64,000 nt of DNA from Bacilli bacterium (GTDB taxonomy: Bacteria; Bacillota_I; Bacilli_A; RFN20; CAG-826), in assembly GCA_022653695.1 (NCBI GenBank), contig JALCSW010000001.1, positions 425,034 to 489,033 of the forward strand, read 5' to 3'. The position numbers and the translations under genes were made by a program. Below are positions 30,507 through 38,392 of the stretch, one piece after another; position 1 is the first letter of the stretch, and every line of letters begins with the position of its first letter. A model generated the notes under the pieces. It was not told the DNA's origin and ran no database searches. It worked only from the letters and a program-made list of their open reading frames with translations.

Positions 30507-30641
30507 TCCCCCCCAATAAAACGATTGTTTTTCGTTTATCTTGCGGAAAGGGTGGTGACGTTTTTTGATAGAACGAGGTGGCGAAAATCGAATCCGTCTT
30601 ATTGTTTGTCTATGACCCTAAAACATAAACAGGAGTCAATT

Positions 30642-32396
30642 ATGGCAAAGAAGAAAATCAGATTGGTCTGGCCGATTCTCATATCCACACTCATGCTCGC
30701 CGGATGCGCCGAGCCTTCCTCATCCACGTCGGCGAGCCTCTCCGCCTCGAGCGGGTACTCCTCATCCCTTGATGGCAGTGACTCATCAAGTTCCTCTTCT
30801 TCGAGCGTTATCGCGCCGAGCGCCATCGCGGCGGCCCGAAACGCGGCTGCAGGCACCGAAATCACGGTGGAAGGCGTCGTCGTCCACTACAACTACACCG
30901 GGCAAAGCACCCCTTACATCACCGGCTTCTGGCTCGCTGACGACACGGATAGCATCTATGTCTACGGCGAAGACGCCGCTAAGAGCGTGGCCGTGGGCAA
31001 CATGGTCACGGTCAAGGGCACGAAAGCCTATTACATCCCTAACACCGACAGCGGAAGCGCCGCCTCATTGTCCTACGAGGGCATGGCCCAACTGAAAGAT
31101 CCCACCATTCTGCATAACGATGGGCTGACCACCAACGAAATACCATCCGGGGCGATCAACGAAAGCACCGTGTCCGACCTCTCGAAAACCCCCTTGACCA
31201 CCGATATCAGCGGCAAGATCTACAAAGTAAAAGGCTATTACCACAAGTACCCGGCAACCGGATACACAAATTACGGGATAACCGACCTCAACCGCATGGA
31301 CAGGCTCAATGCCTACACCCAAAGCAACGGCAAGGATTTCTCCTGGACCGACGATTACGACGGAAAGGCCGTGGAAATGCTTCTCATCACCACTTTGGCC
31401 AAACCCGGTTCCGGCGAATGGAAGTTCTGTCCCGTTAAAATGATTCGGGAAATAACCGCGACCACCGAGGAAGAGGTCGCATACGGGGCCGAAAGAGCCC
31501 TTAGTGAATTCGCGGACGAATACGCCGTGACGACGGTCGTCACGATACCAACCGCCGATCCGAAACTGGATGGGCTCACAAGAGCCTTCTCGTCCGAATC
31601 GCCCCTTGTGAGCGTCCTCATCGACGGCGATGACGCGAAGGTGACTATCTCAGCGAACGAAAAAACCACCATCACGATCAAGGCGACCGCGACCTATAAG
31701 GGAGTGAGCAAAGACGACAGCAAAGACATCGTCATTTCGGGCAAGCCCCAAATCGACACAAAGACCATCGCCGAGGCTAACGCCCTCGAAGACGGGGCGA
31801 CGGCCACCATCGAAGGCGTCGTGGCCGCGGTGACGTACAAATCGTCGCTGGTCAAGCAGGGGCTCTTCTTGGCGGACGGCACCGGTTCGATCTTCATCTA
31901 TAACGGAACCAGCGCCCAAGCCAATCTCAAAGACGTCGAGAAAGGCAATAAAGTCATCGTCACGGGCACGCTCGTGCACTACATAAACAGCAAGAACGCG
32001 GATAATGCGGCGCGAGAAGGCTACTCCGGCGACCATCAGTTGGCCAACGTGAGCGTCGATTTCATCGACAGCAACGTCTATGAGGTTCCCGCCGCGGCGA
32101 TTCGGGAGAGCACCGTGGCGGCGATCGTCGGCACGGCGGCTTCCAATAACATCACCGGCAACATCTATCGGGTGAACGCCATCGTCAAGGCAGGAAGTTA
32201 CGGATCCTATAGCCTTGTCTCGCCCGATGAGACGAACGTCGCCTTATCTCTCTACACCCAGTGCGGCGGGGCGGATATGGCGTGGCTTTCCGATTACGCC
32301 TCGACGACCGTCTCCATCGTCGTGGGCATCCAAAACCTTAAGCTGACCTCCTCCAGTTGCAATTGGAGGGCCTGCCCCATCAGCGTCGTCGAATGA
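30642..32396 (+). CDS. Lipoprotein with two OB-fold-like domains
   Basis: The ATG at 30642 has CAGGAG 6 nt upstream and begins a lipoprotein signal with lipobox MLAGC near residue 20. An in-frame ATG at 30525 would bury the signal. After a Ser-rich linker there are two related units, about 60-215 and 375-580. Both begin ITVEGVV/ATIEGVV and contain GFWLADDTDSIYVYG and GLFLADGTGSIFIYN, the pattern of YhcR-type OB folds. An Ig-like beta domain lies between them. Such units occur beside secreted nucleases, but no nuclease domain is present here. The protein is surface-exposed; its ligand is unknown. Confidence 0.8.
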   Translation: MAKKKIRLVWPILISTLMLAGCAEPSSSTSASLSASSGYSSSLDGSDSSSSSSSSVIAPSAIAAARNAAAGTEITVEGVVVHYNYTGQSTPYITGFWLADDTDSIYVYGEDAAKSVAVGNMVTVKGTKAYYIPNTDSGSAASLSYEGMAQLKDPTILHNDGLTTNEIPSGAINESTVSDLSKTPLTTDISGKIYKVKGYYHKYPATGYTNYGITDLNRMDRLNAYTQSNGKDFSWTDDYDGKAVEMLLITTLAKPGSGEWKFCPVKMIREITATTEEEVAYGAERALSEFADEYAVTTVVTIPTADPKLDGLTRAFSSESPLVSVLIDGDDAKVTISANEKTTITIKATATYKGVSKDDSKDIVISGKPQIDTKTIAEANALEDGATATIEGVVAAVTYKSSLVKQGLFLADGTGSIFIYNGTSAQANLKDVEKGNKVIVTGTLVHYINSKNADNAAREGYSGDHQLANVSVDFIDSNVYEVPAAAIRESTVAAIVGTAASNNITGNIYRVNAIVKAGSYGSYSLVSPDETNVALSLYTQCGGADMAWLSDYASTTVSIVVGIQNLKLTSSSCNWRACPISVVE

Positions 32397-32533: not shown

Positions 32534-35338
32534 ATGTTCGACAAGGGGTTTTATACCAACGCAAGCGACATAACTTTCTTAGACAAAGCCATCGCTGATT
32601 TGGACGCTTGCGACAGTTTCGATTGGACTGTCTCTTTTATTAAGAAGGCGGGTCTTGCTTTGCTGTACCCCGCAATTGAGAAAGCGTTAAAAAGAGGCGC
32701 TCGTGGACGTATTGTCACGTCAACGTACCAGAACTTCACCGACGTTCCGGCCCTAGAGATGTTTTTGACGCTTCAAGACAGATACAAGAACTTCGAATGC
32801 CATCTCGATTACGGGTGTTTCGGCGACGATGGTTTCCATACCAAAGGCTATGTGTTCGCCATCAACGGCCGCCACGAAATCATCATCGGGTCCTCGAATA
32901 TCACGTATTGGGCCCTAAGGAAAAACAAAGAATGGGATCTGTCGGTCTTTTCGGACGAAAACGATGTTCTCTTAAAGGAAGTCGAAACGGAGTTCGACGG
33001 TTATTGGAAAGCCACTTACGCCCTTGACCGCGACATCGTAAAACGCTACGCGGTTCGGCTCGCATACGCGATCGAATCCTGGGACATGGATTACTTTGAC
33101 CCGACAAGCGATCGCCCCGTCCGCCCAAACCTTATGCAGCGCAGCGCCTTAAAGGAAATCGCCCGTTACCGAAGGGAAGGCGTCGACAAAGCCCTTGTTG
33201 TGGCCGCCACAGGAAGCGGAAAAACGTATTTGGCCGCGTTCGACGCTCTCAATTTCCAAGCCAAGAAACTTCTTTTTGTGGTTCATAAGGACATAATTCT
33301 CGAAGAAGCCCTTCAAACGTTCGCCAAGGTTTTCGGCCGGGAAAGAACCTATGGCGTCTACACCGACGAACAAAAAAGACTGGACACCGACTTCGTTTTC
33401 GCGTCGAACCAGATTTTGGCCAAACACCTTGACCTGTTTGCCCAGGACGAATTCGACTACATCGTGATCGACGAGGTCCATCACGCCGCGGCGAGCACTT
33501 ATCGCAAAATCATCGATTACTTCAAACCGCAGTTCTTACTGGGCTTGACCGCCACGCCCGACCGTATGGACGAACAATCGGTTTATGATCTTTTCGACCG
33601 GAACGTGCCATACGACCTCCGTCTCCGCGAAGCCCTCGAGAACGACCTTGTAGTTCCGTTCCATTACTATGGAATCAAAGACTCCCTGCTCGACTACGAC
33701 GATACCGATTCGCAAGAAGGGATCCGCCGCATCGTCATGAGTTGCGCCAGTCAGGAGAATTGCCAATTCATCGCCAACGAAATCGAAAAGCACCGACCCA
33801 AAGGCAAACTGAGGTGCGTCGCCTTCTGCCGCAACGTCGAGCAGTGCCGGCTCATGAAGGAAGGCATGGAGGAACTCGGCTACGATTGCTGCTATTTGAC
33901 GGGCACAAACACCACAGGCGAAAGAATCAAAGCGTTCGACGATCTCCAAGACGAGGGCAGTCCGCTGAGCATCATCTTCTGCGTCGATATCCTGAACGAA
34001 GGCGTTGACGTCCCCTCCATGAACATGGTCCTCTTTCTCCGTCCGACCGAATCGAGCACGATATTCATCCAGCAACTAGGGCGCGGACTCCGCAAATACC
34101 AAGGCAAACCATATCTCACCGTCCTCGATTTCATTGGCAACTCCTATACGAGAAGCGTCCAAATCGCGATCGCTCTCGGCTCTTTGTCCAAAGGCGGTTC
34201 GCCCGACAAACGCGCCATGATCGATTATGTCCGAAGCGACTTCGACAATATCGGCATCCCCGGTCTGGAGATCCATATCGACAAGGAATCCGTAAGTGAG
34301 ATACTGCATTCCATCGAGCGCACCAACTTCAACCACATCAACCTGCTCATCCAGGATTACAAGAACTTCAAGGCATACCTCAGTCTCAAGGCGGGCGAGT
34401 ATCCTCGACACGTCGATTTCCTGAATCCGGAAGTGAATGCCGACCTTCTCCGTTACACCAAGAAGAGCGGTTCCTATTACGACTTCCTCGTCAAGGCGGG
34501 CGAAGACGTCCCTTATTTCTCGGAGGGCGAAATCGACGTCATCCGAACCGTCTCCTGGTATCTGCCGCTTATTAGGCCCTACGAATACAGGATACTTGAA
34601 AGTTTGCTTGATGGGCCGAAGACCAAAGACGAACTTAAGGCCTTGTTCGCCGACTACGAAAACCACAACGACGAATCCTTCATTCACGCGCTGAAAATGC
34701 TCATGGGCGAAGTGACATTAACCAAGAACAACTGGTATGTCCCACTCGTCAAAGAGACGGACGGAATATATAAGGCGAACTTCGATATCTCCAGCAAAAC
34801 CCTCACGGATTGGCTCCGCGATCTCCTTTCCTATGGCTTGCAGCGCTTCGAAAGCGAGTTCTATGGAATCAAAGGACCCTTGCGTATCTACGGGCCCTAT
34901 ACGATGGCCACAAGCCTTCAGGCGATCAACAACCATTCCCTGTATAACATGACGGGCGTGACATACGCCAAAGGCCGCCTCCTTCTATATATCAACCTCA
35001 ACAAGGATTTCCAAAGCGAGGAACGGCTGAAGTACAAAGACAAATTCCTTTCGCCCAAGGTCCTGCAATGGGAATCCCAGACGGGCACCACCCTCGCGAA
35101 CTTCAAAGGCCATAAGCTCATGGGCTTTGGCGAGGCGGACATTTTCGTCCGCAAAACGAAGAAGGACGACGGGATCGAAAACCCATTCGTGTATTTAGGC
35201 AAAGGCAAACTGACCAACCCCCGTGACAGCGGCAACCCCGCCCGAGCTCTGCTGTTCGATATCGTTCTGACGCAACCAGTCCCCGAGGAGTTCAAGTATG
35301 ACTTCGGAATCGAAGACACCGACGAAAAAACGAATTAG
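32534..35338 (+). CDS. PLD-like nuclease / SF2 helicase / DUF3427 protein
   Basis: Three parts in 934 residues. The N-terminal 170 form a phospholipase-D-like nuclease fold with HTKGYVF (near 102) and IIIGSSN. The D of the usual HxKx4D is missing, as in restriction-type PLD proteins. Residues 200-560 are an SF2 ResIII/SSL2-like helicase: Walker A ATGSGKT (about 224), DEVHH (313-317), LGLTATPDRMD, and motif VI QQLGRGLRK. The C-terminal 370 residues match DUF3427 in layout. Proteins of this build are thought to act in DNA repair or defence. No ribosome site is visible; TATACT lies 9 nt before the ATG, so the mRNA may be leaderless. It overlaps the Nudix gene by 41 bases. Confidence 0.88.
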   Translation: MFDKGFYTNASDITFLDKAIADLDACDSFDWTVSFIKKAGLALLYPAIEKALKRGARGRIVTSTYQNFTDVPALEMFLTLQDRYKNFECHLDYGCFGDDGFHTKGYVFAINGRHEIIIGSSNITYWALRKNKEWDLSVFSDENDVLLKEVETEFDGYWKATYALDRDIVKRYAVRLAYAIESWDMDYFDPTSDRPVRPNLMQRSALKEIARYRREGVDKALVVAATGSGKTYLAAFDALNFQAKKLLFVVHKDIILEEALQTFAKVFGRERTYGVYTDEQKRLDTDFVFASNQILAKHLDLFAQDEFDYIVIDEVHHAAASTYRKIIDYFKPQFLLGLTATPDRMDEQSVYDLFDRNVPYDLRLREALENDLVVPFHYYGIKDSLLDYDDTDSQEGIRRIVMSCASQENCQFIANEIEKHRPKGKLRCVAFCRNVEQCRLMKEGMEELGYDCCYLTGTNTTGERIKAFDDLQDEGSPLSIIFCVDILNEGVDVPSMNMVLFLRPTESSTIFIQQLGRGLRKYQGKPYLTVLDFIGNSYTRSVQIAIALGSLSKGGSPDKRAMIDYVRSDFDNIGIPGLEIHIDKESVSEILHSIERTNFNHINLLIQDYKNFKAYLSLKAGEYPRHVDFLNPEVNADLLRYTKKSGSYYDFLVKAGEDVPYFSEGEIDVIRTVSWYLPLIRPYEYRILESLLDGPKTKDELKALFADYENHNDESFIHALKMLMGEVTLTKNNWYVPLVKETDGIYKANFDISSKTLTDWLRDLLSYGLQRFESEFYGIKGPLRIYGPYTMATSLQAINNHSLYNMTGVTYAKGRLLLYINLNKDFQSEERLKYKDKFLSPKVLQWESQTGTTLANFKGHKLMGFGEADIFVRKTKKDDGIENPFVYLGKGKLTNPRDSGNPARALLFDIVLTQPVPEEFKYDFGIEDTDEKTN

Positions 35339-35735
35339 GGTCGCGGCCGCTCTGATCCACGACGGGACGAAGATCTTTTTGGCCCAGCGCGATTATGGTT
35401 TCCTGAAGGGCAAATGGGAATTCCCGGGCGGCAAGATCGAGTCCGGCGAAACCCCAGAACGGGCCCTTGTCCGAGAAATCAAAGAAGAACTCGACACGAC
35501 TATTTCCGTTGATTCCTTTTTCATGAACATCGTATACGAATACCCGGATTTCATTATCGACATGGACGCGTTCAACTGCCATATCAAGTCCGGGGAACTT
35601 GAAGTCGAAAAAGGAATCCATTCCGCCGAAGCGTGGAAAGAAATCAAAGATTTGAATAAAGAAGATTGGTGTCCGGCCGATCGGTTAATCGTCGAAAAAC
35701 TAACTGATAAAAACACTAAGCAGTCCATCTCCTGA
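35298..35735 (+). CDS. Nudix hydrolase, MutT-like
   Basis: A 145-residue Nudix protein. The box is complete: G-KIESG-E-TPERALV-RE-I-K-EE-L at about 40-62. The family removes damaged or excess nucleoside triphosphates such as 8-oxo-dGTP. GAGGAG lies before its ATG inside the helicase gene, and the 41-base overlap implies coupled translation. The pairing of a DUF3427 helicase with a Nudix enzyme suggests a joint job, perhaps altering or sensing a nucleotide. Confidence 0.9.
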   Translation: MTSESKTPTKKRIRVAAALIHDGTKIFLAQRDYGFLKGKWEFPGGKIESGETPERALVREIKEELDTTISVDSFFMNIVYEYPDFIIDMDAFNCHIKSGELEVEKGIHSAEAWKEIKDLNKEDWCPADRLIVEKLTDKNTKQSIS

Positions 35736-35794
35736 ACAACGAATCAGAAAACAATAAGCTGTACAATAAGGGACAAGAAACAAGAGAAATTTCT

Positions 35795-36112
35795 ATGAAA
35801 GCCTATAACAAATTGGTTCGAGACAATATCCCCGAAATCATCGCCAAAGACGGGAAAGTCTGCCATACACGGATTCTTTCCGACGAAGAATTCAAGAAAT
35901 ACGCTTTCGCAAAACTCCTTGAAGAGTCAAAAGAAGCGAACGAATCGCAATCAGCCGAAGAATTGGCGGACCTCGAGGAAGTGGTTCTAACCGCCGCCAA
36001 ATCAATCGGATGCTCGCGAGGAGAACTGGAGAAAATCCGCTTAGCCAAATCCAAGAGAAACGGCGCGTTTGAAAAGAAAATACTGCTGATCGACGTCAAG
36101 GAAAGCAAATGA
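35795..36112 (+). CDS. MazG-like nucleotide pyrophosphohydrolase
   Basis: A 105-residue all-helical protein starting MKAYNKLVRDNIPEII, the signature of a small MazG/phosphoribosyl-ATP pyrophosphohydrolase-like family. The acidic metal-binding residues are in EESKEANES and EELADLEEVV. It probably hydrolyses a non-canonical NTP to the monophosphate. It is 59 bases after the Nudix gene and ends 16 bases from the CRISPR array. TACAAT near 35762 could give it a promoter of its own. Confidence 0.82.
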   Translation: MKAYNKLVRDNIPEIIAKDGKVCHTRILSDEEFKKYAFAKLLEESKEANESQSAEELADLEEVVLTAAKSIGCSRGELEKIRLAKSKRNGAFEKKILLIDVKESK

Positions 36113-36128
36113 CTGATTACTTGAAAAC

Positions 36129-38392
36129 AAGGGTCGAACTTTTAGATAACACTACCCTCAAACTAGGAGACGTCGCCGTTCCAAAGCGCGCCGGTTGAGG
36201 ATACTTTTAGATAACACTACCCTCAAACGATAACTACGCATGGCAATACGAAGGCAAATGTTGAGGATACTTTTAGATAACACTACCCTCAAACCCTTAT
36301 CGATTCGGCGTCGCTCATATCTAAGTTGAGGATACTTTTAGATAACACTACCCTCAAACGAGCTCTGTTTGACATCCAGTAAATGATTGGTTGAGGATAC
36401 TTTTAGATAACACTACCCTCAAACAGCACGAACACGCGCACGAGGACACCCATAGGTTGAGGATACTTTTAGATAACACTACCCTCAAACTCGCCGTTTG
36501 GGTTCTCCGCCCCAGGCTTTGGTTGAGGATACTTTTAGATAACACTACCCTCAAACCCTTGACGAGTTGCTTTTCGACCGAATCGAGTTGAGGATACTTT
36601 TAGATAACACTACCCTCAAACGATGTCCTTGTGATGGAGAACGTACCTCAAGTTGAGGATACTTTTAGATAACACTACCCTCAAACGGTATAAGAGACCG
36701 CTACGAAAGCCTTCTCGTTGAGGATACTTTTAGATAACACTACCCTCAAACCTTATAACCCGGAAAGCATCAATGACGTAGGCGTTGAGGATACTTTTAG
36801 ATAACACTACCCTCAAACTAATGGGATTTATGCCCTATTCCCTTGGGTCGTTGAGGATACTTTTAGATAACACTACCCTCAAACCTACCGAGCGGCGAAG
36901 GGCTACGATCGCGTCGTTGAGGATACTTTTAGATAACACTACCCTCAAACGTGTCAGTCAGCAATAGTATATCAAGAGTAGTTGAGGATACTTTTAGATA
37001 ACACTACCCTCAAACTTGATAAGTTCGTCGATTTCGTTGATGGCGAGTTGAGGATACTTTTAGATAACACTACCCTCAAACTCATCAGTCACCGGGTTCA
37101 AGGGCTTGAAGTTGAGGATACTTTTAGATAACACTACCCTCAAACAAACAAAATCGCTTTGCCGACATTCCAAGCGTTGAGGATACTTTTAGATAACACT
37201 ACCCTCAAACCGAAGATTTTGACGGCTTGGACATCATCAACGTTGAGGATACTTTTAGATAACACTACCCTCAAACCGTTGACGAAGGTTATCCCGCGAA
37301 TCAAACCGTTGAGGATACTTTTAGATAACACTACCCTCAAACTGCTCATTTTTTAACCTCGGCTTTCTCGGTCGTTGAGGATACTTTTAGATAACACTAC
37401 CCTCAAACTGGGAACCCCACACGGAACCCTCGGTATCGCGTTGAGGATACTTTTAGATAACACTACCCTCAAACACCTCGGCGCAGAACTCGGTCTGGGT
37501 CTTCGTTGAGGATACTTTTAGATAACACTACCCTCAAACTTGTAAGCGGGGTCGTAAACGTCCGCATTGGTTGAGGATACTTTTAGATAACACTACCCTC
37601 AAACATACCGCTTGGGTGCTTTTCGTCGGCGGGGGGTTGAGGATACTTTTAGATAACACTACCCTCAAACATCGAACAAGCGGGAACGACCGCGTAGGAA
37701 GGTTGAGGATACTTTTAGATAACACTACCCTCAAACTTTACAAGCGTGAGTTGTTCGTTGATTCACGGTTGAGGATACTTTTAGATAACACTACCCTCAA
37801 ACTATTCGGCGGAGGGACGGGCGGGGCGACATTGGTTGAGGATACTTTTAGATAACACTACCCTCAAACTTAGCCAACATGATAACGAAGGCCAAGACCG
37901 TTGAGGATACTTTTAGATAACACTACCCTCAAACTATGTTCATAGAACGTCGCGTCCGGAACGCCGTTGAGGATACTTTTAGATAACACTACCCTCAAAC
38001 CGCGAATTGTTCCTAAAGGAATTCCATAGACGTTGAGGATACTTTTAGATAACACTACCCTCAAACCTTTTGGACAAATGCCGCTTCGCTTTATCGGTTG
38101 AGGATACTTTTAGATAACACTACCCTCAAACTGCTGTCAACTAATCGTTTCATATTCTTGCGTTGAGGATACTTTTAGATAACACTACCCTCAAACCCTT
38201 ATCGATTCGGCGTCGCTCATATCTAACGTTGAGGATACTTTTAGATAACACTACCCTCAAACGTGTGGTGCCAACTACTGGCCTCCAAAAAAGTTGAGGA
38301 TACTTTTAGATAACACTACCCTCAAACATTTTCGGGGACACCCGCCGAAATCGGGTAGTTGAGGATACTTTTAGATAACACTACCCTCAAAC
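36129..38392 (-). CRISPR. CRISPR array, 35 repeats and 34 spacers, type II-A
   Basis: Thirty-four identical 35-bp repeats plus one degenerate terminal repeat (36129-36163) are separated by spacers of 29-32 nt, mostly 30-31. In the predicted crRNA sense (minus strand) the repeat starts GTTTGAGGGTAGTGTT and ends AAAAGTATCCTCAAC. The terminal repeat has lost its last nine bases on the left, which marks the trailer end; the leader is therefore on the right beside csn2. The first and last intact repeats are at 36194-36228 and 38358-38392. One spacer occurs twice (36295-36324 and 38197-38227). Confidence 0.98.

Follow-up and report, generated by a model that had tools for sequence, protein, structure and literature searches.

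In the 64,000-nucleotide stretch of a Bacilli bacterium contig analyzed here (JALCSW010000001.1, positions 425,034 to 489,033, assembly GCA_022653695.1; hereafter "the window"), three closely spaced genes lie on the + strand beside a type II-A CRISPR array. Gene 1 (32534-35338) encodes a SauUSI-type enzyme of 934 residues, gene 2 (35298-35735) its partner, a Nudix hydrolase of 145 residues, and gene 3 (35795-36112) a probable MazG-like nucleoside triphosphate (NTP) pyrophosphohydrolase of 105 residues. Genes 1 and 2 overlap by 41 bases, 59 bases separate the stop of gene 2 from the start of gene 3, and 16 bases lie between the end of gene 3 and the first, degenerate repeat of the array at 36129. 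An original prediction, made from the letters of the sequence, had described the same three genes with this overlap and this distance to the array, and its coordinates were confirmed throughout from the open reading frames (ORFs) and repeats. With somewhat more confidence than doubt, we regard the cassette as a type IV restriction system accompanied by a nucleotide-pool guard.

The SauUSI-type enzyme and the Nudix hydrolase

Gene 1 carries the Pfam domains PLDc_2, ResIII, Helicase_C, and DUF3427. Its product is matched over residues 12-890 by the PADLOC model mREase_IV, a type IV methyl-directed restriction enzyme (1.9e-111), and its best match among solved structures is SauUSI (PDB 7CLG; 4.7e-112, residues 14-892). 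The domain order, PLD nuclease, SF2 ATPase, coupler, and SRA (DUF3427), is that of the SauUSI family. The Pfam-defined PLD nuclease domain (residues 45-158; 32666-33007, + strand) retains H102 and K104, which correspond to the catalytic H119 and K121 of SauUSI and are invariant in all 60 homologues of an alignment read in SauUSI numbering. The SF2 motor (residues 198-538; 33125-34147, + strand), placed by Pfam and by the alignment, has intact motifs: Walker A GSGKT, DEVH, TATP, and GRGLRK. DUF3427 (34562-35290, + strand; Pfam 9.8e-30) covers the coupler and the SRA-like reader, in which D836 and W846 take the places of the SauUSI pocket residues D858 and W868 and are kept in 58/60 and 48/60 homologues, respectively. 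The pocket residues of SauUSI come from its structure paper, where Tyr831 is proposed to contact the methyl group (PMC7913695). When the two pockets are aligned, the Asp, Trp, and Ile are kept in gene 1, while Phe is changed to Tyr, Tyr831 to Val, and Met829 to Thr. SauUSI cleaves DNA containing 5-methylcytosine (5mC) and 5-hydroxymethylcytosine (5hmC) (PMC7913695; PMC3874153), and is active by itself in vitro and in Escherichia coli (PMC3874153). Judged by its sequence, gene 1 is a SauUSI-family type IV restriction enzyme, which should act as an ATP-driven, modification-dependent nuclease.

Gene 2 belongs to the Pfam NUDIX family and matches the PADLOC defense candidate PDC-S07 (5.9e-44). Its catalytic Nudix box, GGKIESGETPERALVREIKEEL, is intact, and the catalytic residues are invariant in 48/48 aligned Nudix proteins linked to SauUSI homologues. 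D128 is invariant as well: all 48 have Asp at the position of MutT Asn119 and NudG Asp118, which we take to read the base. The best solved relative of gene 2 is 3GWY (7.3e-22), and a profile of the linked Nudix proteins finds 5X1X first among solved structures, then 3GWY (1.3e-43), NudG (1.8e-28), and MutT (3.7e-25). 5X1X, a "MutT" of Staphylococcus aureus, is essentially the SauUSI-linked Nudix protein of that species. In a tree built on few columns, many of whose branches are weak, 3GWY nests among the SauUSI-linked Nudix proteins; its nearest neighbor (54% identity, support 89) is encoded on a plasmid of Hymenobacter (Bacteroidota), where it adjoins SauUSI. For 3GWY, kcat/Km values (/M/s) of 4.8e6 for 5-methyl-deoxycytidine triphosphate (5-Me-dCTP), 4.4e6 for 5-hydroxymethyl-dCTP, 6.7e6 for 5-Me-CTP, and 8.5e4 for 5-OH-dCTP have been reported (PMC5158307), and 5-methyl-dCTP hydrolases also include NudG and human DCTPP1 (PMC10742078; PMC3744803). 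Gene 2 thus probably encodes a putative 5-modified-dCTP pyrophosphohydrolase; it is described here as related to the 3GWY group, not as NudG, because the 3GWY group has no curated model.

Linkage of Nudix genes to modified-DNA nucleases

SauUSI-like loci were drawn from relatives, 392 genomes sampled from the phylum, and records of plasmids and phages; the collection is mostly of one phylum, the other phyla being represented by a few plasmids. A scan of genome contigs with a single protein gave only three loci. Sixty-eight loci were collected, four of which lay at contig edges and were left out, and the counts for the 64 evaluable ones were hand-corrected from the neighbor lists at L107, where a wrong ORF had been chosen, and at L024, where the gene is split by a frameshift. 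A Nudix gene directly adjoins the SauUSI homologue in 52 of the 64: 24 are co-directional and downstream, 14 co-directional and upstream, 12 convergent, one divergent, and one fused. Detectable Nudix relatives number about 2.6 per genome, and therefore adjacency to SauUSI by chance would be expected at well under 1% of loci. Furthermore, at least 11 changes of arrangement with adjacency retained are seen on the tree among the adjacent, unfused pairs, which argues for selection and not for simple co-inheritance. The distances between SauUSI proteins correlate with those between the Nudix proteins (Mantel r 0.40, p <= 0.0005). In one locus (L075), the two are naturally fused into a single chain of 1100 residues with the order PLD-ResIII-Helicase_C-DUF3427-NUDIX. 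In S. aureus, the Nudix gene lies 1 nt upstream of SauUSI (L172 and L162), and all SauUSI residues that the structure paper mentions are matched by the L172 sequence.

Within the window's family, a PDC-S07-type Nudix is present in 20/20 genomes with SauUSI and in 38/136 others (p 2e-10), as counted at E <= 1e-30, a loose threshold since the PDC-S07 model (PDLC04899) picks up E. coli MutT (6e-39) and NudG (5e-44) strongly as well. It was already known that this Nudix class is linked to type IV restriction in Streptococcus suis: PDC-S07 was co-localized with type IV restriction-modification genes in 23/23 cases, with no mechanism proposed (PMC12813430). Beyond this co-localization, no published link between SauUSI and Nudix proteins, or explanation of one, was found in the literature searched, which lacked most subscription journals and preprints. 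As a separate observation, L029, L030, and L031 form a SauUSI lineage on a long branch and have no Nudix gene next to them, and in the genomes G032 and G018 (L029, L031) a C5 methyltransferase gene is located 6 to 7 kb from SauUSI.

Related Nudix domains are also found with other nucleases of modified DNA. Six relatives encode single chains of about 460 residues with an SRA-Nudix-NOV_C arrangement (L204:3370-4752, L205:3847-5247, L206:764-2140, L207:3316-4689, L208:3120-4505, and L209:3498-4874). In a structural model of this protein, whose predicted local distance difference test score (pLDDT) is 58 overall and of which the SRA and Nudix parts alone were used, the SRA part matches the SRA folds of ScoMcrA, SUVH5, TagI, and SauUSI (Z 12.7 to 9.7); the part in the middle matches 3GWY (Z 9.3). 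The C-terminal part retains D372 and E390-V-K392, the PD-(D/E)XK pattern. This architecture is type IV-like and seems not to have been described before; when viral contigs were scanned for this type of fusion, a single partial match appeared, in the Nudix region. On a Priestia plasmid, a related Nudix gene overlaps by 4 bases the gene for an HNH enzyme, the N-terminus of which shares 41% identity with the SRA part of SRA-Nudix-NOV_C, and a Paenibacillus plasmid encodes an HNH-Nudix fusion. There is also a case of replacement at a single locus: where one genome (G317) has SauUSI, another (G429) has an MTaX1 gene and a gene for a C5 methyltransferase, with the Nudix gene and both flanks retained (L226:1497-4335 versus L087:8143-11317). 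These arrangements suggest that the Nudix association tracks the class of modified-DNA nuclease. On other plasmids, PDC-S07-type Nudix genes are situated 0.4 to 1.3 kb from GmrSD_N (DUF262), which belongs to another type IV class (L248:3498-6996 and L250:3441-6036).

The probably MazG-like protein and the adjoining CRISPR array

The gene 3 protein has no Pfam match. In its 22 homologues, the pattern EExxE...ExxDxxE (E43 E44 E47 ... E56 D59 E62) is invariant, as in all-alpha NTP pyrophosphohydrolases. AlphaFold models it with confidence as a bundle of helices (pLDDT 95.8), for which Foldseek returned no significant match; weak VIA-align fold matches include MazG and PRA-PH chains, the best being iMazG with a Z of 5.9, which is within the range common for helical matches. 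Because of the invariant pattern and the confident helical model, the protein is probably MazG-like, a designation that is reasonable but not proven.

The original prediction had expected the three genes to be linked in other genomes. This holds for the SauUSI-Nudix pair and not for the trio, since the gene 3 family adjoins SauUSI at no other SauUSI locus examined. Among 61 relatives, DUF3427 is found in 14 and the gene 3 family in seven, and the two occur together only in the window genome. Co-occurrence of MazG-like and DUF3427 genes in the phylum (10/20 versus 44/372, p 7e-5) was rejected as a sign of linkage; outside the window, a long distance separates these genes. Besides the window, 23 loci of the gene 3 family were compared: eight adjoin an HNH endonuclease gene and seven a SauUSI-related SF2 helicase gene, mostly PLD-bearing, without DUF3427, and broken in one case (L039, L040, L041, L142, L144-L146, L148-L153, L155, and L159). 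Such combinations are possibly a separate small defense pair. A different MazG family (PF12643) stands beside SauUSI in three loci, together with a GIY-YIG/SLFN-g3 helicase (L079:6074-8005, L086:2180-4187, and L165:6308-8388), and beside SRA-Nudix-NOV_C in another three, together with an SLFN-g3 helicase (L204, L207, and L209). Gene 3 is a sporadic accessory to the pair of genes 1 and 2, and its substrate is perhaps another modified nucleotide.

The type II-A array (36129-38392, 35 repeats of 35 nt) belongs to the same island and lies outside the cassette, and csn2 and cas9 are encoded on the - strand beyond it. One spacer is present twice, at 36295-36324 and 38197-38227, close to either end of the array; it had no exact match in the viral-contig scan. 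Upstream of the cassette, a large ORF (30525-32396) encodes a predicted lipoprotein-like product with two similar halves.

Interpretation and comparison with known systems

In the explanation that we favor, the SRA-like C-terminal domain of gene 1 would detect 5mC, 5hmC, or a closely related modified cytosine in DNA entering the cell, after which the enzyme would translocate with ATP and the PLD domain would cut. Gene 2 would hydrolyze the matching modified cytosine (d)NTPs to monophosphates, so that modified bases originating from shredded or phage DNA, or from phage enzymes, would be kept out of host DNA; once built in, they would turn the nuclease on the host itself. The activity of gene 2 on 5-modified cytosine nucleotides is proposed from its relatedness to 3GWY, and binding of 5mC or 5hmC by the gene 1 reader is likewise presumed. 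Plausibly, the two proteins share their target bases, gene 1 meeting them in DNA and gene 2 in the dNTP pool, because SauUSI cuts 5mC and 5hmC DNA and the relatives of gene 2 hydrolyze 5-modified dCTP. As the purpose of the pairing, we infer self-protection, which is preferred because the Nudix gene pairs with the reader-nuclease and not with CRISPR or other systems.

Several points weigh against this explanation. V809 of gene 1 stands at the position of SauUSI Tyr831, and Val is found there in the clade of gene 1; since this Tyr is the methyl-contacting residue of SauUSI, the exact modification recognized by gene 1 may differ from that of SauUSI. It is doubtful that a host would produce 5-modified dCTP without phage kinases. 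No adjacent Nudix gene is found in 12 of the 64 loci, and one Fusobacterium and one Rhodobacter plasmid locus have SauUSI without Nudix; in both of the two cases checked among the 12 (G032 and G018), a Nudix homologue is encoded elsewhere in the genome. Several relatives of gene 2 occur in housekeeping neighborhoods, and the PDC-S07 label alone is unspecific because its model also matches MutT and NudG; a PDC-S07 call that lacks a linked nuclease may therefore mark a housekeeping gene. Completeness of the window genome is only 79%. Avoidance of C5 methyltransferases by SauUSI carriers was considered as evidence for a 5mC target: in the phylum, 17/54 carriers and 232/338 others have such an enzyme (p 5e-7), but within the family no avoidance is seen (7/23 versus 53/133, p 0.49), and hence it was set aside as a lineage effect.

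A less probable though serious alternative is offensive control of the pool, in which the Nudix enzyme would destroy 5-hydroxymethyl-dCTP or 5-methyl-dCTP made by a phage. The phage would then face a dilemma, being cut by the SauUSI-type enzyme if it keeps its DNA modified and by CRISPR-Cas9 and ordinary restriction if it does not. The evidence on linkage and substrates that favors the guard holds for this scheme too, which accounts equally well for the genomics and agrees with the presence of type II-A CRISPR-Cas next door; however, the neighbor lists indicate that the SauUSI-Nudix linkage persists regardless of CRISPR. To our knowledge, most of these hosts have no known phages whose cytosine is modified throughout, which also counts against it.

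It is improbable that gene 2 serves in MutT-type sanitation of oxidized nucleotides, or in some other form of repair, and that its linkage to gene 1 reflects a stress regulation common to both. The generic models do place gene 2 nearer MutT than NudG, a further point against our assignment: its score is 91.3 bits against TIGR00586 (8-oxo-dGTP diphosphatase), under the cut-off of 97.9, and 73.1 against PRK10546, under the cut-off of 156. The Asp at the MutT Asn119 position in 48/48 linked Nudix proteins is nevertheless that of NudG, the linked family is far nearer 3GWY than MutT, and fusions to SRA-containing nucleases are hard to account for by repair. The original prediction had kept repair as its main alternative, which is thereby disfavored. 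About as improbable is a Nudix protein whose main part is structural or regulatory, as a subunit that tunes, for instance, the ATPase or DNA reading of the SauUSI-type enzyme, with catalysis secondary; the fusions and the conserved adjacency would fit such a subunit, whereas the invariant catalytic box in 48/48 proteins and the ability of SauUSI to work alone (PMC3874153) would not. Least likely of all is a three-gene abortive system, with a helicase as the sensor of foreign DNA and two hydrolases that exhaust the nucleotides: three close, co-directional genes beside CRISPR, MazG domains as predicted defense parts (PMC13092281), and the frequent neighborhood of the gene 3 family with nucleases speak for it, but that family stands beside no other SauUSI locus, and gene 1 is a complete restriction enzyme.

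The original prediction is thus partly supported. It rightly saw genes of defense type and a Nudix gene functionally tied to gene 1. The adjacency of these two genes is far above chance. Its helicase, taken for a sensor of foreign or damaged DNA, is instead a SauUSI-family enzyme with an intact nuclease active site. As for its hydrolases, there is no sign of bulk nucleotide depletion, and the relatives of the Nudix enzyme are active on 5-modified cytosine nucleotides.

Among the barriers to gene transfer into S. aureus, SauUSI is a major one, and it has been regarded as a system of a single gene. If a conserved partner acts on the same chemistry in the nucleotide pool, this would explain the orphan defense candidate PDC-S07, and the pairing would offer a link between restriction and nucleotide-pool sanitation. 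It also raises the question of how type IV enzymes spare the host when modified nucleotides circulate. Tentatively, and with slightly more doubt than belief, a general principle may be proposed, that restriction enzymes attacking modified DNA travel with hydrolases of the matching modified dNTPs: SRA readers would pair with 5-modified-dCTP Nudix enzymes across PLD, HNH, and PD-(D/E)XK nucleases, and MazG-like enzymes with DUF3427-less SauUSI paralogues and HNH nucleases. If so, type IV immunity would police DNA and the nucleotide pool jointly.

Among known systems, the closest characterized relative of gene 2 is the Bacteroides fragilis 5-Me- and 5-hydroxymethyl-(d)CTP pyrophosphohydrolase (Q5LBB1; 3GWY), which resembles it in the Nudix box and the base-site Asp. 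E. coli NudG (Orf135), with 35% identity, is likewise a 5-methyl-dCTP hydrolase with Asp118 at the matching position, but it has a housekeeping location and no restriction partner. The SRA-HNH type IV enzymes TagI and ScoMcrA share the reader fold of the SauUSI type and differ in having an HNH nuclease and no ATP motor. In S. suis, the PADLOC candidate PDC-S07 combines the same Nudix class and partner as in the window (PMC12813430). The nearest likeness to gene 1 is SauUSI of S. aureus (PDB 7CLG), which has the same domain order, catalytic His and Lys, motor motifs, and SRA pocket Asp and Trp, at an identity of about 30% and with Tyr831 in place of the Val. A Nudix gene adjoins SauUSI there too, although it lies upstream, whereas in the window it lies downstream and overlaps, with a MazG-like gene and a CRISPR array alongside.

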